From Fidelibacterota bacterium (GTDB lineage Bacteria > Fidelibacterota > Marinisomatia > SCGC-AAA003-L08 > TS1B11), in contig CP070638.1 of the NCBI GenBank assembly GCA_020354025.1, positions 2,778,578 to 2,842,577 on the forward strand: DNA of 64,000 nucleotides. The letters run 5' to 3'. The position numbers and the translations under genes were made by a program. This document shows, one piece after another, positions 1,196 through 63,768 of the stretch (its first letter is position 1; the number at the start of each line of letters is the position of its first letter). The notes under the pieces are model-generated. The model saw only the letters and a program-made list of their open reading frames with translations. It was not told the DNA's origin and searched no databases.

Positions 1196-2593
1196 ATGGC
1201 TAAAAAAGAGAACGGGGAACTGCGCCTTCCGCCCCAGAACCTGGAAGCCGAACAGGCAGTTCTGGGAGCTATCCTATTGGACCCCAAGGCCCTGGATCGG
1301 GTGTTACCCGTCCTGCCCAAAAACGCCTTTTATAAAGAAGCCCATAACCGCATCTATGACGCTATGCTGGAGCTGCAGAATATAGGGGATCCCGTTGACT
1401 CGGTGACTCTCACTAACCTTCTAGCCAAGCAAGGAATGCTGGAAAAAATTGGCGGCGCATACTATATCACCGGGTTAGTGGAAGAGTTACCATCAGCGGC
1501 CAACGTGGAACACTACGCCGATATCGTCCGTGAAAAGCACATATTAAGGGAGATCATCGACACTGCTTATGAGATGAGCACAGATGCATACGAAGGCCAG
1601 GGAGAACCCAACGAACTGCTGGACTCCGCTGAACATCGTCTCTTTGACCTTCAGCGTCGATCAGCGGGAACGAAGTCGGTAGGTATTGAGCCTATTTTAC
1701 ATAAAAGCCTGACGAAAATCGATAAGCAACATCATGACCGGAAGCTCGGGTACACCGGATTGCCATCAGGTTTCCCTGATCTAGATGACATGACCGACGG
1801 ATTCCAGCCGTCAGACCTTGTCATTCTCGCTGGGCGACCATCCATGGGCAAAACTGCCCTAGCTCTTGGTATCGCACGCAATACTGCCAAGGTTTATGAC
1901 CACAGGGTAGGATTATTCAGTATGGAAATGTCCGAATACCAGGTGGCCCTCCGGCTTATGACGGCTGAAGCCAGGATTGACTCCCACAAGCTACGACGGA
2001 GACAACTTTCAAAACAGGACTGGCCTAAAATCTCCAAAGCGGCTGGAGAGTTATCTGAATTGCCTATTTATCTAGATGACTCCGCAGGATTGAATATCCT
2101 GGAGCTTCGTTCCAGGATCAGGCGTCTCAAGGCTGATTACGACATTGAAATGGCCATAATTGATTATCTCCAGCTGCTTTCAGGACACGGGCGATCGGAA
2201 AACCGACAGCAGGAAATTGCGGAAATGACCCGTTCCTTGAAGGGACTTGCCAAAGAGCTCGACATAGTGATCCTAGCCTTATCTCAACTTTCCAGGGCAC
2301 CTGAACAGAGGCCGGGGAAGGACAAGCGGCCGATCATGTCTGATTTGCGGGAATCGGGTGCCATCGAACAGGACGCAGACGTCATTTTATTTCTTTATCG
2401 TCCCTGGATTTACAGCCGGGCAGATAAGCACGTTGGACTGGCTGAAGTAATCATTGGAAAGCAACGCAACGGACCCACGGGAAAAGTCGATCTCACATTC
2501 GTCTCGAAATACGCAGGATTTGAATCCGTTGCGCCTGGAGAGAAAGAGGCCAGACTGGCAGCAGAGGCGATTGAAGAGGAACCTCCTTTCTAA
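1196..2593 (+). CDS. dnaB: Replicative DNA helicase DnaB
   Basis: A 465-aa hexameric helicase that unwinds DNA at the replication fork. The N-terminal helical domain (about residues 12-120, beginning PQNLEAEQAVLGAIL) is followed by a linker and the RecA-like ATPase. Walker A is GRPSMGKT (213-220) and Walker B is IIDYLQLL (321-328). The late motif with SDLRESGAIEQDAD is present, as is the C-terminal segment with GKQRNGPTG. Length is typical and no intein is present. Its stop overlaps the next start (TAATG), coupling it to rel. Confidence 0.97.
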   Translation: MAKKENGELRLPPQNLEAEQAVLGAILLDPKALDRVLPVLPKNAFYKEAHNRIYDAMLELQNIGDPVDSVTLTNLLAKQGMLEKIGGAYYITGLVEELPSAANVEHYADIVREKHILREIIDTAYEMSTDAYEGQGEPNELLDSAEHRLFDLQRRSAGTKSVGIEPILHKSLTKIDKQHHDRKLGYTGLPSGFPDLDDMTDGFQPSDLVILAGRPSMGKTALALGIARNTAKVYDHRVGLFSMEMSEYQVALRLMTAEARIDSHKLRRRQLSKQDWPKISKAAGELSELPIYLDDSAGLNILELRSRIRRLKADYDIEMAIIDYLQLLSGHGRSENRQQEIAEMTRSLKGLAKELDIVILALSQLSRAPEQRPGKDKRPIMSDLRESGAIEQDADVILFLYRPWIYSRADKHVGLAEVIIGKQRNGPTGKVDLTFVSKYAGFESVAPGEKEARLAAEAIEEEPPF

Positions 2594-4800
2594 TGGTCGT
2601 AGACGCCCTCAGGCAGATACTCCCTAGTAGCGGCCCCGCTGATCCCCGTCGTCAACCGGCCAAATTCCAGACCATCATAGGCAATATGAACCTTGACGGC
2701 GAGCAGAATAAGGACGAAATCGAGGAATTTCTTTGGCGGGCCTACCAGACGGCGGAGAGAGTCCACGCGGAACAGACACGCAAGTCCGGAGAGCCGTATT
2801 TCGAGCACTGTTATCAAGTGGCTCTGCTACTGTCGGAATGGCGTATGGATCCCATTACCATCGCTGCGGGGCTGCTGCATGACTCTATTGAGGATACTCC
2901 CTACTCCACAGACGATCTTGCGGAGCAATTCGGCCCGGAGGTATGTCACCTGGTGGAGGGAGTAACCAAGCTTTCTGACATCAAGTTCCGCAGTCAGGCC
3001 GAGCGACAGGCTGAAAACTATATGAAAATGCTCCTGTCTGTTGCCAGGGATATTCGTGTGATCATTATCAAGTTCGCCGACCGTGTTCATAATATGCGCA
3101 CTATTCAGCATCTACCCCTTATCAAGCAGCGGCGTATTGCCATCGAGACGCGGGATGTCTATGCCCCCCTGGCCCACCGTCTGGGGATAGCCCGAGTGAA
3201 GTGGGAGCTGGAGGACCTAGCCCTGAGAACCCTGGAGCCGGAGGCCTTCGCGGACCTGGTAAAAAAAGTACGGGATTCCCGGTCGGAACAGGAAAAACAC
3301 ATAGAGGAATTCGCCGGTCCGATCCGTGAGCTGCTGGAAGTCAATCACATTAAAGCCAAGATTGTAGGCCGACCCAAGCATTACTACTCCATTTGGGGGA
3401 AGATGCAGCGTCGGCGGGTAAACTTCGAGGAGATTTACGATCTACTGGCTATCCGTATTATTGTTGATCGCGTGGATGAGTGCTATGCCGCTTTGGGGAT
3501 TATTCATCAGCTGAATACTCCCGTTCAGGAGCGTTTCAAGGATTTCATAGCCACTCCCAAGCTGAACGGCTATCAGTCCATCCATACCACCGTGGTGGGC
3601 ACCACCGGGAAAGTGGTGGAAGTTCAGATCAGGACCGATGAAATGGACCAGACCGCCGAAATCGGAGTGGCGGCCCACTGGCGCTATAAGGAGGACGCCC
3701 ACCTAGGCATCACACCCATGGACCGCCAGGTCCGCTGGCTGAGGGAGCTAGTGGAAGTAGTGCAGAATGAAAAGTCCACTCCGGAGGAGTTTCTGGAACT
3801 GCTCAGGATTGACCTGTTCAATGACGAGATCTTTGTTTTCACACCTAAGGGTGATCTCGTCCAGCTGCCAGTCGGAGCAACTCCAGTGGATATGGCCTTT
3901 GAGGTGCATACCGAAGTAGGCCTCCACTGTGTAGGGGCCAGAGTCAACGGTAAAATCGTGCCCCTGAACACTTTGTTGAACAACGGGGACACGGTGGAAA
4001 TTGTTACTTCCGAGCACCAGACTCCCGGTCATGCCTGGCTGAAGTTTGTTCAGACGGGAAAGGCGAAGACTCACATACGGAAGTTCATTCGCCGAGCCCA
4101 GCTGCAAGAGAGTGTTCGTCTGGGACGCGAAATGATGGACAAAGCTCTCCGCCGCCTGAAGCGTACTTCTCTTAAGAAGGAGCTGCGCAAAGATCCGCAA
4201 AGGGCGGGATTTGATACCGAGGATGCTTTGTATGCTGCCTTAGGACGCGGGGACGTCACAGTTCGGCAGATAATCGAAAAATTTGTACCGGATCTTGTTC
4301 CGGAGAGCATGGGTCTTGATAAAAAACTGACCCAGCCTCCCACTAGCCGACCGCGGAAATCGGCCCAGGGTGTGCGAGTAGATGGTATATCCGACCTGCT
4401 CATTTCCCTGGGAAAATGCTGTAATCCCATCCCTGGCGATGAGATTATCGGATTTGTTACGCGCGGCCGGGGGATTACCGTGCATCGAGTGACCTGCGTC
4501 AACCTCCCCTTGATCGGTGGAGACCAGGATCGCTACGTGGAGGTGGAATGGGATGTGGACAAACGGCGGGATTTTGTGGTCCAGCTGAAGATCGTAGCAG
4601 AGGACCGCAAGCACTTTCTCAAAGACGTCACGGAATCAATATCGAAGCTGAATACTAACATTGTCAGCGTCGACATGACGGTTGAGGAAGGCATCCTGAC
4701 CCTCTTTATGACAATAGAAGTGGACGGCATTCGCAAACTGGAGCGAATTAGGAACCGCTTGAAAATGATTCCTGGAATAATATACATGGAGCGTGAATAA
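2593..4800 (+). CDS. rel: Bifunctional (p)ppGpp synthetase/hydrolase (Rel/SpoT)
   Basis: A 735-aa stringent-response enzyme that makes and degrades (p)ppGpp. The HD hydrolase domain is intact, with EHCYQVA (about 71) and HDSIED (96-101). The synthetase domain has YDLLAIRIIV and RFKDFIATPKLNGYQSIHT; the RFKD form is typical of bifunctional enzymes rather than synthetase-only RelA. A TGS domain (IFVFTPKGDLVQLP), a conserved-cysteine region (GKCCNPIPGDEI) and a C-terminal ACT domain follow. The ATG at 2593 overlaps the dnaB stop. An internal ATG at 2686 (MNLDGEQNKD) would drop 31 poorly conserved residues and is a plausible alternative. Confidence 0.95.
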   Translation: MVVDALRQILPSSGPADPRRQPAKFQTIIGNMNLDGEQNKDEIEEFLWRAYQTAERVHAEQTRKSGEPYFEHCYQVALLLSEWRMDPITIAAGLLHDSIEDTPYSTDDLAEQFGPEVCHLVEGVTKLSDIKFRSQAERQAENYMKMLLSVARDIRVIIIKFADRVHNMRTIQHLPLIKQRRIAIETRDVYAPLAHRLGIARVKWELEDLALRTLEPEAFADLVKKVRDSRSEQEKHIEEFAGPIRELLEVNHIKAKIVGRPKHYYSIWGKMQRRRVNFEEIYDLLAIRIIVDRVDECYAALGIIHQLNTPVQERFKDFIATPKLNGYQSIHTTVVGTTGKVVEVQIRTDEMDQTAEIGVAAHWRYKEDAHLGITPMDRQVRWLRELVEVVQNEKSTPEEFLELLRIDLFNDEIFVFTPKGDLVQLPVGATPVDMAFEVHTEVGLHCVGARVNGKIVPLNTLLNNGDTVEIVTSEHQTPGHAWLKFVQTGKAKTHIRKFIRRAQLQESVRLGREMMDKALRRLKRTSLKKELRKDPQRAGFDTEDALYAALGRGDVTVRQIIEKFVPDLVPESMGLDKKLTQPPTSRPRKSAQGVRVDGISDLLISLGKCCNPIPGDEIIGFVTRGRGITVHRVTCVNLPLIGGDQDRYVEVEWDVDKRRDFVVQLKIVAEDRKHFLKDVTESISKLNTNIVSVDMTVEEGILTLFMTIEVDGIRKLERIRNRLKMIPGIIYMERE

Positions 4801-56738: not shown

Positions 56739-58160
56739 ATGACACCTACCGACCTCGTCCGTCGTGTTGTAGACGAAAACATAGAATACATCGATTATCG
56801 CTTTATCGATATCCAGGGGACCTGGCACCACTTCTCCACTCCGGTGAGCCAATTCAACGAGTCCGTTTTTACCGCCGGGGTGGGCTTTGACGGCTCCTCC
56901 ATCCCGGCCTGGAAGGAGATCCACGAGAGCGACATGCTGGTAATCCCCGATCCCAAAACCGCCCGGCTGGACCCCTTTTTCGAGGCCAGGACGCTGGTAA
57001 TGATCTGCGACGTCATCGACGCGGTGACCAAGGAAGTGTACCATCGTGATCCCCGCAGCGTGGCGAAGAAGTGCATCGAATATCTCAAGTCCACCGGTAT
57101 TGGCGACCAGGCCTGTTTCGGACCCGAGGCCGAGTTCTTCGTCTTCGATGAGATCCGCTTCTCGAATCCCGCCGACGGCTCGGGGGGGATGTACGTCATC
57201 AACTCCACCGAAGCCCACTGGAACAGCGGCGAGGAGTCGGAGCTGGGCAACCTGGCATTCAAGATCCGCGCCAAGGGTGGCTATTTCCCCACTCCGCCGA
57301 CGGATACTTTGCAGGACTACCGGGCGGAAGTGGCCCGCATCCTGGAGGAAATGGGTATCGAGGTGGAGGCCCTGCACCACGAGGTGGCCTCCGCCGGACA
57401 GTGCGAGATCGACATGCGCTACGAACCCCTGCTGGACATGGCCGATAACCTCCAGTGGTTCATATACGTGGTGAAAAATACCGCCCGGCAGCACCGCAAA
57501 ACGGCCACCTTCATGCCCAAGCCCGTATTCAACGACAACGGCTCCGGTATGCACACCAGCGCCTCCATCTGGAAGGGTGACAAGAACCTCTTCGCCGGCA
57601 AGAAGTACTCCGGCCTGTCGGACCTGGCGCTGTACTTTATCGGCGGGCTGGTCCACCACGCCAGGGCGCTGATCGCCCTGACCAACCCGACTACCAACAG
57701 CTACAAGCGCCTGGTGCCGGGATTCGAGGCGCCGGTGAACATGGCCTACTCGGCGCGGAACCGATCGGCGGCCATCCGGATCCCCACCTACTCCGACAAC
57801 CCCAAGACCAAGCGCGTGGAGTTCCGCACACCGGACCCCTCCTGCAACGCCTACCTGGCCTTCTCGGCCATGATCATGGCCGGTCTGGACGGCATCCAGA
57901 ACAAGCTCGACCCCGGGAAGCCGTTCGACAAGGACATCTTCTTCACCTCGGCCCGGGACCTGGAGGGGGTGATCACAGCGCCGATGAGCCTGGACCAGGC
58001 CCTGGACGCCCTGGAGCAAGACCGCGACTGGCTCCTCAAAGGGGACGTCTTTACGGCCGACCTGATCGACACCTTCATCGATTACAAGCGCCGGGAAGAA
58101 GTGGACAACATGCGCCAGCGGCCGCACCCCTTCGAGTTCGAGATGTACCACGACTGCTAG
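56739..58160 (+). CDS. glnA: Glutamine synthetase type I
   Basis: A 473-aa enzyme that joins ammonia to glutamate. FGPEAEFFVFDEI, HHEVASAGQCEIDMRY, FNDNGSGMHTSASIWKGDKN, NPTTNSYKRLVPGFEAPVN and FRTPDPSCNAYLAFSAM are the metal and substrate signatures. At the position of the adenylylated Tyr (usually NLYDLPPEE) it has DIFFTSARDLEGV with no Tyr, so adenylyl control by GlnE is not expected. An AAAGGAG site precedes the ATG. The gene has markedly GC-rich third positions, which create a long spurious antisense frame. Confidence 0.95.
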   Translation: MTPTDLVRRVVDENIEYIDYRFIDIQGTWHHFSTPVSQFNESVFTAGVGFDGSSIPAWKEIHESDMLVIPDPKTARLDPFFEARTLVMICDVIDAVTKEVYHRDPRSVAKKCIEYLKSTGIGDQACFGPEAEFFVFDEIRFSNPADGSGGMYVINSTEAHWNSGEESELGNLAFKIRAKGGYFPTPPTDTLQDYRAEVARILEEMGIEVEALHHEVASAGQCEIDMRYEPLLDMADNLQWFIYVVKNTARQHRKTATFMPKPVFNDNGSGMHTSASIWKGDKNLFAGKKYSGLSDLALYFIGGLVHHARALIALTNPTTNSYKRLVPGFEAPVNMAYSARNRSAAIRIPTYSDNPKTKRVEFRTPDPSCNAYLAFSAMIMAGLDGIQNKLDPGKPFDKDIFFTSARDLEGVITAPMSLDQALDALEQDRDWLLKGDVFTADLIDTFIDYKRREEVDNMRQRPHPFEFEMYHDC

Positions 58161-58402: not shown

Positions 58403-58837
58403 TCATTTCGCGGCCTCCCGAGACGTTTCCTGTTCCGGCTCCTCCTCAGCCCGCCTTCCGGCGCCGGCGATCCGGCCGCCCTGACGGATAGCGCGTATCA
58501 TGACCTCCAGCAGCTGATCCTGGTCTGAGAGCGCGCTGCGGGCCGACTGAATGGCGCCTTCCACGATCTGATTGCTGGTGACGGCCTCGGCAATCTGCCT
58601 GCCGCGCAGCTCATCGGACCGCTGGGCCACCAGCTCCTCGATATGCCGGCGGCGGGCGGTCCAGCGCCCGCGCTCCATCCAGCGCTTGACGGAGGCCGGG
58701 GAGGGCGCCCGGTCGCCATATTGCAGGCGCAGACGGTGGACCACTTCCGCCCGGGTATGCCCGGCGCAGTAGTAGGCGAAGGCATCCTCCCGGACGTGCT
58801 GGGGGTAGCGGGCGATCCTGGTGCGCGCTTTGGTCAT
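58403..58837 (-). CDS. Phage terminase small subunit-like HTH protein
   Basis: A 144-aa basic protein. Residues about 10-65 form a helix-turn-helix (YPQHVREDAFAYYCAGHTRAEVVHRL... then SPASVKRWMERGRWTARRR) with the spacing of phage terminase small subunits and related DNA-binding proteins. The rest is helical, ending in an Ala/Glu/Arg-rich tail. No large terminase, portal or other phage gene is nearby. It may be a phage remnant or a captured DNA-binding protein. GC is high, unlike the island that follows. Confidence 0.6.
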   Translation of the reverse strand: MTKARTRIARYPQHVREDAFAYYCAGHTRAEVVHRLRLQYGDRAPSPASVKRWMERGRWTARRRHIEELVAQRSDELRGRQIAEAVTSNQIVEGAIQSARSALSDQDQLLEVMIRAIRQGGRIAGAGRRAEEEPEQETSREAAK

Positions 58838-58875
58838 GGCGGGAATATATGGAAAAGGGAAGGACTTGTCGTTCG

Positions 58876-58902
58876 CCTGGTGCGCCTGGTGCGCCTGGTG
58901 CG
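58876..58902. repeat. Three perfect 9-bp tandem repeats
   Basis: GCCTGGTGC occurs three times in succession at 58876-58884, 58885-58893 and 58894-58902. It is followed at once by GCGAACTCACCC, which recurs at 61830-61841 on the other side of the accessory island. Confidence 0.9.
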
Positions 58903-58935
58903 CGAACTCACCCTGTTTAAGCTAGCGCATAGGGG

Positions 58936-58962: not shown

Positions 58963-59107
58963 TGAAGATTGAGAATTGATAGGGATACTTCGCGAGTGCT
59001 GGGGCTTTTTCCAAGCGGCGGAAACCGATCCAAGTGATATTATTTCAATTTTTATAGGATTAGCCAGAAGAGGCAATTACATTTTGTCATTGGTAAATAC
59101 ACGGTAT

Positions 59108-59147
59108 CAGGTATCAACGACCTGGGATGTTACTTCGTAAATAGTAG
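59108..59147 (+). repeat. 40-base leader element, copy 1
   Basis: The segment matches 60930-60969 at 34 of 40 positions without gaps. It contains a small stem, CAGGT-ATCAACG-ACCTG, and ends AAATAGTAG. It ends 17 bases upstream of the ATG of the 211-aa protein. The second copy is in the same orientation before the HNH gene, so it may be a shared promoter or operator or a cassette boundary. Confidence 0.8.
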
Positions 59148-59164
59148 TTATATGGCCGGATAAG

Positions 59165-59800
59165 ATGCATATAAAAGGTGATGCTACATTCGAGGATTTA
59201 AAAGCGCAGTATCCGGAATTAGTAGAGTTGTCGGAATCTAAGTACGGCTCTCCTTTGCCAAAGCCCATGCAGCAGCTATTACTCGACATGGCGACTTCCT
59301 CCGTAATGAAGGTCGAGCAGACAGTAGCCTGGATTATTGGAGCGGCCGATGTCACATACAAAGTGCTCAAAGGGCACGCATACTCAGCTGAGTATCCAAT
59401 ATTTTGGATTAAACTCAACGGTATTGTTGACGAGTATTACGAGGAGGAGAACGAGTTTCGCTCCTTTAACGAACTCATCAGTTTCAAGAAGCCGATTATG
59501 CGAAGCCTCGACTCATTACGGGCGAAGCTGACGGAAGAAGATCTTAGCTTTATTAAGTTTATGCGCCATTCTTACTGTCATATTAGCTTGCATTATCTCT
59601 GGCATAGAGCGAAAGTGAAGAAAGGAAAGATCGTTAAGGTCCTGCCACCTTATGACCCTAATGCCCGAGATATCGCAGCACGCATTATTGAAGAGCATAA
59701 TGGGAATCAGCGAGCGGTAGCTCATACGTATGCCAGTAGAATTGCCGAAGATCTGTTTAATCTGAGGAATGCAGTAACAGAGGCAGCAGAGGACAAATAA
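59165..59800 (+). CDS. Unknown helical protein with RX4H (HEPN-like) motif
   Basis: A 211-aa protein that I do not recognise as a named family. It appears almost entirely alpha-helical. The segment FMRHSYCHISLHYLW has Arg134 followed by His and then His139, an R-H-x3-H pattern that fits the RX4-6H catalytic motif of HEPN-domain ribonucleases. It lacks signal and membrane segments. Lower GC than the surroundings and position in an island with an HNH endonuclease suggest a defence role. The HEPN call is an inference from one motif and predicted helicity. Confidence 0.6.
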   Translation: MHIKGDATFEDLKAQYPELVELSESKYGSPLPKPMQQLLLDMATSSVMKVEQTVAWIIGAADVTYKVLKGHAYSAEYPIFWIKLNGIVDEYYEEENEFRSFNELISFKKPIMRSLDSLRAKLTEEDLSFIKFMRHSYCHISLHYLWHRAKVKKGKIVKVLPPYDPNARDIAARIIEEHNGNQRAVAHTYASRIAEDLFNLRNAVTEAAEDK

Positions 59801-59842
59801 CCCGCGCATAGGTGTCGACCAAGGTCGGTGCGAAAATAAAGA

Positions 59843-59871
59843 AGTAGCAAGGGGCTTTTCCCTTTGTTACT
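59843..59871 (+). other. Hairpin upstream of the 323-aa gene
   Basis: AGTAGCAAGGGG pairs with CCCTTTGTTACT (12 pairs including two G-U) around the loop CTTTT. No T-run follows on the plus strand. On the minus strand the stem is followed by TCTTTATTTT, so it could act as a reverse-strand terminator, or as a structured leader 27 bases upstream of the next ATG. Confidence 0.55.
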
Positions 59872-59897
59872 CTCTAAGTATAGATGGGTGAATCATC

Positions 59898-60869
59898 ATG
59901 AGTAAAGAAGCAGTTCAAATGATTTTTCGGGGTGAGGCTGTCGATAAACACTCGATGGACGTGGAGCAGCTAGCGCCGGCTCTTATGGCGGTTGGAGAGA
60001 TATGTCGTGAAGCAAATTATATTATAAATGCTGACAGGGCTAAAGTCCACGTTTTGGTCAAATCTGATTCTGGGGGGAAATGCTTTGATATAAGTCTTGA
60101 AGTTGTCCAGACTGTTTATGAACAAGTTAAGGGACTATTGAAAGAACAAGAAGTTGCATCTGCAAAAGAATTATTAGAATGGCTAGGTATCATTGCAAAA
60201 GTCGGGGCCGCACCCGTAACCTGGGGTTTGTTTCAATATTTGAAGAAACGCAAGGCCAGGAATATTGTATCGGTCGTGGAAGAAGATGGAACGGGGACTG
60301 TTAAAGTACAGATAGATGGGGAGTCATCCCCGATAATCATTAATCAAAGAGTTTATCAATTGAGTGAAAGCAGGAAGATATTAAAATCATCCAAAGGGAT
60401 TGTTGCCCCTACCCAGGCACCAGGATTTGAATCGGTAGAATTCCGCTCTGATGAACAGATTCATGAGATAATTGACAAGCAGGAAGCTAGAGATATAATG
60501 AGGACAGAGATAGACGAATATGATGAGGGGCTTGAACCCCAGATTGTTAACGCTGTCCTTAAAATCTATTCCCCCGTTTTCGACGTTCATTCTACTACCT
60601 GGAGATTTTATTATGGTGAGGAAATAATAAAAGCGGATGTGAGCGAAACTAGCATCGCTCAAGATGTAATAAGGCGGGGCAGTATCAATGTAGCCGATAT
60701 TTATAAAGTTAAATTGCAAATAACACAACGTATAACGCCCGCTGGAATGTATAGGAATGACTATAAGATTATTGATATTTTGGATTTTACCCCTGGGCCC
60801 GAACAGCAACGCCTTCCTTTTAATTCACAAATCTCTATTAAGGAAAATAAGAATAAAACGGAAGATTAG
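59898..60869 (+). CDS. Unknown 323-aa protein in the accessory island
   Basis: I do not recognise this protein. The N-terminal half (1-85) has MDVEQLAPALMAVGEICREANYIINADRAKVHVLVKS, alternating helices and strands. A helix pair at about 86-118 includes a hydrophobic segment (WLGIIAKVGAAPVTWGLFQYL) that might associate with a membrane. A beta-rich C-terminal half (about 120-300) ends in a Lys-rich tail. There is no signal peptide and no catalytic motif I can name. It lies between the HEPN-like protein and the HNH endonuclease, in the same orientation. Confidence 0.65.
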   Translation: MSKEAVQMIFRGEAVDKHSMDVEQLAPALMAVGEICREANYIINADRAKVHVLVKSDSGGKCFDISLEVVQTVYEQVKGLLKEQEVASAKELLEWLGIIAKVGAAPVTWGLFQYLKKRKARNIVSVVEEDGTGTVKVQIDGESSPIIINQRVYQLSESRKILKSSKGIVAPTQAPGFESVEFRSDEQIHEIIDKQEARDIMRTEIDEYDEGLEPQIVNAVLKIYSPVFDVHSTTWRFYYGEEIIKADVSETSIAQDVIRRGSINVADIYKVKLQITQRITPAGMYRNDYKIIDILDFTPGPEQQRLPFNSQISIKENKNKTED

Positions 60870-60929
60870 TGCGTCAAGTCCAAAAGCGTACCATCCCGAC
60901 AATATTCAATCATGGCTGAGGAACAATGT

Positions 60930-60969
60930 CAGGTTTCAACGGCCTGGAATGTTTCATCATAAATAGTAG
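60930..60969 (+). repeat. 40-base leader element, copy 2
   Basis: This copy matches 59108-59147 at 34 of 40 positions, including the stem region (CAGG with CCTG) and the ending AAATAGTAG. It ends 28 bases upstream of the HNH-endonuclease start. The conserved stem and the placement before a gene in both cases argue for function rather than chance. Confidence 0.8.
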
Positions 60970-60997
60970 GTAGGCGGATCATGGGAGTGGATAATAT

Positions 60998-61792
60998 ATG
61001 CTAACATTTCTTCTTACGTGGAATGCAAGTAGAGGAGAACTGAATTGGGCTCGAGGAATTGAGAGAAAATATAAATCAAAAGGTCATGTAAGATTTAAAT
61101 GGGCTTGTGGAAATACTAAATCAATTGTTGAAGGCGACCGAGTATTCTTCCTAAGACAGAGACTTGAACCTCGAGGTATTATAGGTATTGGCACCGTAGA
61201 GAGAGCTCCTTACTTTGATACTCATTGGGATGAATCGAGGCACGATCAAGCTCTTTATGTTGATGCATTATGGCATCATTTTTCTGAAATCCCCGTCATA
61301 GCGCGATCACGTTTAGACCATGCTCCATATTCAGTGGTTCATTGGAAAACACAGAAATCAGGTATTTCTGTCCCTGAGAACATCGCAGATGAACTCGAAG
61401 AAGAATACTTTGGATGGGTTAAAGAGCCTGATTTCAACCTTCCTGAGGAATTACCCTCAAGTTCGACCGTAGTTGAAGGTATAAAGAAAAGGGTAACAGT
61501 AAATACTTATGAACGTAATCAACGGGCGAGGGCCCTATGCATCCAGCATTATGGATCAAGTTGCCAAATATGCAAGTTTAATTCTGCGGATATCTACGGC
61601 TCACAACTGGCTGGGATAATCCATGTTCACCATCTAGTTCCAGTTGCCTCGATCGTTGAAAGCTATGAGATTAATCCTGTCACTGATCTTATCCCAGTAT
61701 GTCCAAATTGCCATGCAGTTTTGCATCAGTCTGATCCTCCATATCCAGTTGAAAAAGTAAAGCAAATGTTGAAGAAGCGGGGATCAGCCTAA
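60998..61792 (+). CDS. EVE-like/HNH endonuclease, probable modification-dependent restriction enzyme
   Basis: A 264-aa protein. Residues 1-115 look like an EVE/PUA-type domain (LTWNASRGELNW..., VEGDRVFFLRQRLEPRGIIGIGTV), a fold that binds modified cytosines. The C-terminal domain (about 175-255) is an HNH nuclease: CQIC zinc pair, the core HVHHLVPVA with His211 and His212, then DLIPVCPNCHAVLH. Proteins with this EVE-HNH layout are known type-IV restriction enzymes that cut DNA containing 5-methyl- or 5-hydroxymethylcytosine. Substrate specificity here is an inference. Confidence 0.78.
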   Translation: MLTFLLTWNASRGELNWARGIERKYKSKGHVRFKWACGNTKSIVEGDRVFFLRQRLEPRGIIGIGTVERAPYFDTHWDESRHDQALYVDALWHHFSEIPVIARSRLDHAPYSVVHWKTQKSGISVPENIADELEEEYFGWVKEPDFNLPEELPSSSTVVEGIKKRVTVNTYERNQRARALCIQHYGSSCQICKFNSADIYGSQLAGIIHVHHLVPVASIVESYEINPVTDLIPVCPNCHAVLHQSDPPYPVEKVKQMLKKRGSA

Positions 61793-61900: not shown

Positions 61901-61929
61901 AAGAATGGGAGGGGCCACGATGCAAAGAT

Positions 61930-62200
61930 CCCCGACGCAAAGGTCCCCGACGCAAGGGTTGGGGTCCCGACGCCTTGGTCCCCGACGCAAAGCGGTCCCC
62001 GACGCAAGGTCCCCGACGCAAAGAGATCCCAGACGCAAAGCGGTCCCCGACGCAAGGGTCGTGGCAAGCGGGGTCCCGACGCCTTGGTCCCCGACGCAAA
62101 GCGGTCGGGGCAGGCGGGACTAAGAGCAGGCGGGACTAAGAGCAGGCGGGGCAGGCTCCGAATCACTCACCCTCCCGACGCAAGGTCGGGACAGGCGGGG
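61930..62200. repeat. Repeat field built on CCCGACGC
   Basis: Ten exact copies of CCCGACGC occur, at 61931, 61946, 61966, 61981, 61998, 62012, 62046, 62075, 62090 and 62174, mostly 14-20 bases apart, plus a variant at 62028. A 37-base block at 61961-61997 is repeated exactly at 62070-62106. Two full copies of CAGGCGGGACTAAGAG follow (62111-62126, 62127-62142) and a partial third. The unit is too variable and unspaced for CRISPR. It resembles GC-rich extragenic repeats that multiply between genes. Confidence 0.85.
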
Positions 62201-63087: not shown

Positions 63088-63768
63088 CTACGTTTGGACT
63101 TCGCTGTACGGGTAGCCGATTTGGTCGAAGGGATTGACCACGCTGGTGATGATGTTGCGGGAGTGGGCGGCGATACGCTTGAGGTAGCGGGCATAGAGGG
63201 CTACGGCGGCTCCCTCGCTGGTCTCCAGGTCCTGGATCTCCCCATTAACCACCCCATGGGTGATGGTATCGCAGGCGGCCGATACTTCTTCCTTGTACTC
63301 ATCCATGATTTTCCGGGCCTGTTCCGCATCACTAGTCTTAAAGGCATTGATCGTATCGCGGAACTGGTGGGTAACGGTGGCCTCAATGCGGCTCAGTTCT
63401 GCTTCCGCGCTTCCGGCGCTCAGCCGGGCCGGGTGGTTACGGGCCAGGTCAAAGATATTCTTAGTGTAGTCGCCGATGCGCTCGATGTCCACGACGACGC
63501 TGACCAGCACCAGACCGGATACCAGGTCCGCCGGCCCGGTGACCGCCAGGTGGGTCATCACCTTCTTGCGCACGTCCCGCTCGTAGGCATTGATCTGCTT
63601 GTCCATCTTATAGATATCGATAGCGATTTCGGCGGTGTCTGACCGCCGGAGGGATTCCACCGAAGCCTCGTACATTTCCAGGTCCATGTCAAGCATCTGG
63701 TAGGAGTTGTCCAGGGCCCGGGTATAAAGGTCCTCCTCTTTAAACAGGTGTAATAAACTCTTCCACAT
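63088..63768 (-). CDS. PhoU-like protein
   Basis: A 226-aa helical protein. It has paired PhoU-type helix bundles, with VVVDIERIGDYTKNIFDLA near the middle, the conserved E/D-R-I-G-D/N pattern of PhoU metal-binding helices, and a second matching region near the C-terminus (LKRIAAHSRNIITSVV). It starts 3 bases after the Na/Pi cotransporter stop on the minus strand, with AGGTGA as ribosome-binding site. It probably regulates phosphate uptake by its neighbour. Confidence 0.85.
   Translation of the reverse strand: MWKSLLHLFKEEDLYTRALDNSYQMLDMDLEMYEASVESLRRSDTAEIAIDIYKMDKQINAYERDVRKKVMTHLAVTGPADLVSGLVLVSVVVDIERIGDYTKNIFDLARNHPARLSAGSAEAELSRIEATVTHQFRDTINAFKTSDAEQARKIMDEYKEEVSAACDTITHGVVNGEIQDLETSEGAAVALYARYLKRIAAHSRNIITSVVNPFDQIGYPYSEVQT

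Follow-up and report, generated by a model that had tools for sequence, protein, structure and literature searches.

Do three co-oriented, AT-rich genes of a Fidelibacterota bacterium, one of them encoding an EVE-like/HNH nuclease, constitute a new three-gene defence island, as the original prediction proposed, or do they represent separate acquisitions that share an insertion site? The genes lie in the window, the whole 64,000-nucleotide stretch of DNA analysed here, and much of what had been claimed about their setting is borne out by our analysis. ORF1, ORF2 and ORF3 stand on the same strand, with GC contents of 0.45, 0.41 and 0.41 as compared with 0.53-0.69 in the neighbouring genes, and GC3 values of 0.49, 0.37 and 0.30 as compared with 0.65-0.86. 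GC-rich repeat tracts do flank them on both sides, at 58871-58903 and, downstream of ORF3, at 61911-62187 on the plus strand, where the tract consists of tandem-like CCCCGACGCAAGG repeats. These GC-rich repeats are also found in intergenic DNA elsewhere in the same genome, for example at about 1690-1730 of locus L012.

The designation as an island holds as well. The accessory block extends from the end of glnA at 58160 to phoU (63088-63768, minus strand). Three relatives from its family (L276, L277 and L278) have glnA and phoU as convergent neighbours about 0.55-0.66 kb apart, and nothing in the gap matches the gene at 58403, ORF1-3 or the PadR gene, the last of which is also missing from three genomes of the same genus. 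Because glnA and phoU adjoin each other in these three relatives without the block genes, we regard the block as an insertion; two same-genus genomes that retain phoU with glnA not nearby are uninformative on the empty site. The 144-residue gene at 58403-58837 on the minus strand had been called terminase-like, a description that our searches do not reproduce, as its matches are to helix-turn-helix or other DNA-binding proteins alone and are weak (E 0.02-0.2).

The first gene of the putative system, ORF1 (59165-59800, plus strand, 211 aa), is an orphan. We found no relatives in the phylum (245 genomes), in viral contigs, in genome contigs or on plasmids, in scans that used a single sequence and hence reach close relatives; distant ones may exist. 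The RX4H motif that had prompted comparison with HEPN RNases is indeed present, as RHSYCH at residue 134, but it lies at chance level, arising in 32% of shuffles of the ORF1 protein (69% for RX4-6H), and Pfam searches with a limit as loose as E<=10 returned no profile at all, HEPN included. A single-sequence structure model (pLDDT 47) is mostly helical at low confidence and too poor for fold matching. With the motif expected by chance, a HEPN assignment is unproven, and on these three grounds we reject the identification of ORF1 as a HEPN RNase. Antisense to ORF1, at 59450-59517 on the minus strand, we noted a hammerhead type III-like sequence whose stem III and core (CUGAUGA, GAAA, GUC) are intact and whose stem I is poorly formed; it scores 28.2 bits, below the gathering score of 48.5, and is probably a chance occurrence.

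ORF2 (59898-60869, plus strand, 323 aa), by contrast with its earlier listing as an unknown protein, is named by profile search. It matches the NCBIfam LAPAL_fam profile NF053583 with E 3.1e-48 and 164.6 bits (cut-off 60) over profile positions 4-291 of 292, carries the LAPAL motif at residues 25-29, and matches both PADLOC PDC-S42 (PDLC05015; E 4.6e-57) and phrog_3243 of PHROGs. PDC-S42 is not named in any paper found by our literature search. By sequence, ORF2 thus belongs to a PADLOC candidate anti-phage family and is plausibly anti-phage itself, although it departs from that family in being chromosomal, outside a recognisable prophage, and placed beside an orphan ORF and an EVE-HNH gene.

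Starting with four relatives of ORF2, two from phages and two from plasmids, we built an alignment that led to 160 LAPAL loci, of which 80 are viral and the others are the best 80 of 120 matches in genomes; the LAPAL genes in them are mostly stand-alone prophage or chromosomal cargo. In 36 of the 80 viral loci, or 11 of 47 once redundancy is removed, the gene follows an S24-type (CI) repressor gene on its own strand. Phage A2 carries its LAPAL gene between lysin and the integrase gene int, and in Bbif-1 it sits inside the lysogeny module. The chromosomal copies have scattered neighbours with no recurrent partner among the 80 genomic loci (again the best 80 of 120 matches): single copies adjoin genes known from defence (one for a C5 methylase, for example, or a match to DpdE), and many adjoin housekeeping genes. 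The NCBIfam label for the family, putative phage structural protein, would suit a block that is a decayed prophage fragment with LAPAL as a virion or morphogenesis protein, and in a few Mu-like prophages LAPAL genes do lie among head genes, between head-morphogenesis and protease/capsid genes, a placement of few copies that may explain the label. However, where the context of a viral LAPAL gene is clear, it is mostly a lysogeny or accessory region, the block holds no recognisable phage gene (that at 58403-58837 lacks a significant match), and a scan of the fetched regions and the window with two phage integrases found no integrase-like gene. We consider a prophage remnant very unlikely and reject it, since the genes that would support it are not recognised in the block.

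How might ORF2 act? An AlphaFold2 model built with 101 sequences (pLDDT 87) predicts a hydrophobic segment that connects alpha/beta parts and, after these, a C-terminal part that partially resembles the OB folds of single-stranded DNA-binding proteins (SSBs). The hydrophobic segment spans about residues 85-118; around 90-110 it is moderate in ORF2 (mean hydropathy 1.13) and stronger in sampled relatives (1.2-1.9). Matches of the model to PDB folds are weak, the best at E 4e-3 and none better than E 1e-3. Among viral structures the best match is an uncharacterised protein (E 2e-9), and the best named one, obtained with Foldseek, is a phage DUF6575 protein (E 4e-8, TM 0.42-0.47). An anti-phage system that was identified through functional selection, and validated, is reported to include DUF6575 (PMC9519451); the likeness of ORF2 to such proteins is one of predicted structure, whereas a sequence match to DUF6575 is absent from Pfam searches at E<=10. 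We infer from these features an abortive-infection or superinfection-exclusion protein, in which the OB fold would detect phage nucleic acid or a replication complex while the remainder would target the cell itself, perhaps at its membrane, this last point being a guess.

The third gene, ORF3 (60998-61792, plus strand, 264 aa), largely supports its initial description as an EVE-HNH nuclease. Its C-terminal HNH domain (about residues 169-246) matches PHROGs at E 7e-8 and McrA (6ghc) in the PDB; the N-terminal EVE-like domain (about 1-148) gives a marginal match to 2eve. In Pfam, however, both domains fall below the cut-off, the HNH at E 6.5e-4 and the EVE, weakly, at E 1.6e-3. Enzymes of the EVE-HNH type have been characterised as modification-dependent nucleases (PMC7897488), and their layout is established for type IV (PMC7897488, PMC7641849). 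ORF3 shares with type IV endonucleases such as VcaM4I the order of an N-terminal EVE-like and a C-terminal HNH domain, the latter with CxxC pairs, but differs in its sub-threshold EVE domain, and VcaM4I was not among its significant sequence matches in the PDB. Judged by sequence, ORF3 is probably an enzyme that cuts chemically modified phage DNA: its EVE-like domain would take up a flipped modified base and its HNH domain would cut the DNA, as in type IV restriction. Relatives of the HNH part are many; an EVE part of the ORF3 type was confirmed in no viral contig, and plasmids give only distant matches to it.

Two of the three genes, then, are plausibly anti-phage, one through PDC-S42 and the other through its EVE-HNH layout, and to this extent the proposed defence role is supported. 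That the genes act together does not follow from the neighbourhood survey, in which relatives of ORF1 occur in none of the 160 LAPAL loci (80 viral and the best 80 of 120 genomic matches) and a relative of ORF3 occurs in one. The exception, locus L142, comes from an unrelated proteobacterial MAG, where a LAPAL gene is followed after 103 nt, in the same order and on the same strand, by a gene for a full-length, 46% identical relative of ORF3. The L142 protein (pair at 1716-3917) is longer than ORF3, with about 110 extra residues between its two domains. Could ORF2 and ORF3, with or without ORF1, nevertheless cooperate as a sensor and a modification-dependent nuclease? The direct precedence of a LAPAL gene in L142 argues for it, and the rarity of the ORF3-type EVE part means that even a single common neighbourhood is not trivially due to chance. 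Yet the pair is confined to that one locus in 160 (more could exist, the genomic loci being the best 80 of 120 matches), no LAPAL gene lies near relatives of the HNH part of ORF3 at 71 viral loci and five others from the phylum, a separate upstream element lies between ORF2 and ORF3, and ORF1 never recurs; we consider such cooperation unlikely. One case in 160 is insufficient for a system, and the pair is worth following. With ORF1 lacking a detectable relative and ORF2 and ORF3 paired once, the claim of a three-gene system fails, and ORF1-3 are not a demonstrated new system. The chromosome has acquired a block in which an orphan accompanies two genes of known kinds, one a candidate and the other a probable defence gene.

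The sequences upstream of the genes provide a further view of their arrangement. An element of about 105 nt, detected with a sequence-only model (R1) built from seven copies, occurs on the plus strand at 59054-59155, ending 10 nt before ORF1 (85 bits), and again at 60879-60977, between ORF2 and ORF3 (74 bits). ORF1-ORF2 and ORF3 would be two units, each behind its own copy of a family-specific element. Its consensus reads TTGGATTAGTCAGAAGAGGGAATTACATTC...ATATCAGGTTTCAACGGCCTGGAATGTTTCTTCATAAATAGTAGTTAGGCG, with a promoter-like 5' part of TTGGAT, 17 nt and TACATT. The first copy carries TAGGAT-17-TACATT at 59055-59083, and in the second the 3' half is conserved and the promoter-like half degenerate. 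We found at least 46 matches, distributed over all 11 searched genomes of the family with at least 12 in this genome, these counts being lower bounds from at most 150 scored candidates per genome; nine genomes of other families of the same order gave none among the candidates scored. By automatic ORF calls, 36 copies have a gene downstream, which in 32 cases shares the strand of the element and mostly begins no more than about 120 nt away; 22 proteins encoded by such genes are mutually unrelated save for two alpha/beta hydrolases. Copies are at times 0.65-3 kb apart, in a cassette-like manner. Beyond the window, copies lie in loci L313-L332. Some copies extend about 100 nt further upstream, and another copy, in L012/L318, is adjoined by a sequence resembling the CCCCGACGCAAGG tract.

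We favour a shared promoter or leader, to which we assign slightly better than even odds, over a recombination (cassette) boundary, which is possible at considerably lower probability. As a simple sigma-70 promoter scan of the best copy returned no good match, the promoter reading of the 5' part draws on spacing and conservation only. Other identities were considered and rejected. A structured riboswitch finds no Rfam match in five element-bearing loci and no covarying structure, RNAalifold yielding no consensus secondary structure (0 pairs) across 41 copies; a coding remnant is at odds with single-base gaps between copies that break the frame. The GTTAGGC at the 3' end of the consensus, which we take to resemble the R' box of attC, is suggestive of integrons, and like their gene cassettes the element is a repeated unit of about 100 nt beside single unrelated accessory genes, sometimes clustered. 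An integron attC is nonetheless rejected, since the element has no conserved hairpin, its GTT core is not invariant, its 5' part is promoter-like, and the scan of the fetched regions and the window with two phage integrases yielded no integrase candidate.

The genes behind the element also bear on what kind of cargo ORF1-3 may be. Defence-like products include a PDC-S06 ATPase, a D12 DNA methyltransferase and a GIY-YIG protein; others are a uracil-DNA-glycosylase-superfamily protein, a glyoxalase, a cupin, a carboxymuconolactone decarboxylase, hydrolases and lipoproteins. In L328 (2684-5101), from a different genome of the family, a copy stands ahead of the gene for a 765-aa AAA_13 ATPase assigned to PDC-S06, a candidate defence family (E 7e-80). 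Such a mixed cargo would be expected if these were ordinary accessory cassettes captured behind a shared element, ORF3 alone serving defence and ORF1 and ORF2 having other roles, but the membership of ORF2 in a candidate defence family distributed as lysogen cargo speaks against this, and we judge it quite unlikely. Taking the readings of ORF2, ORF3 and the element jointly, we consider it reasonably probable that horizontal transfer brought a small accessory block of independently exchanged defence-type genes to the site between glnA and phoU. More tentatively, the element may be a previously undescribed gene-capture or regulatory system, behind which acquired genes are placed and expressed or co-regulated, with the ORFs described here among its cargoes. 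Of the leads from this locus, the element is the more novel.

Our analysis replaces a claimed new system with parts that can be tested separately: a widespread prophage-cargo family, LAPAL/PDC-S42, with a predicted DUF6575-like structure and an SSB-like OB fold; a rare pairing of LAPAL and EVE-HNH genes; and an upstream element common to numerous accessory and defence genes in one bacterial family, from which it might be learned how genes of this sort come to be expressed once transferred.
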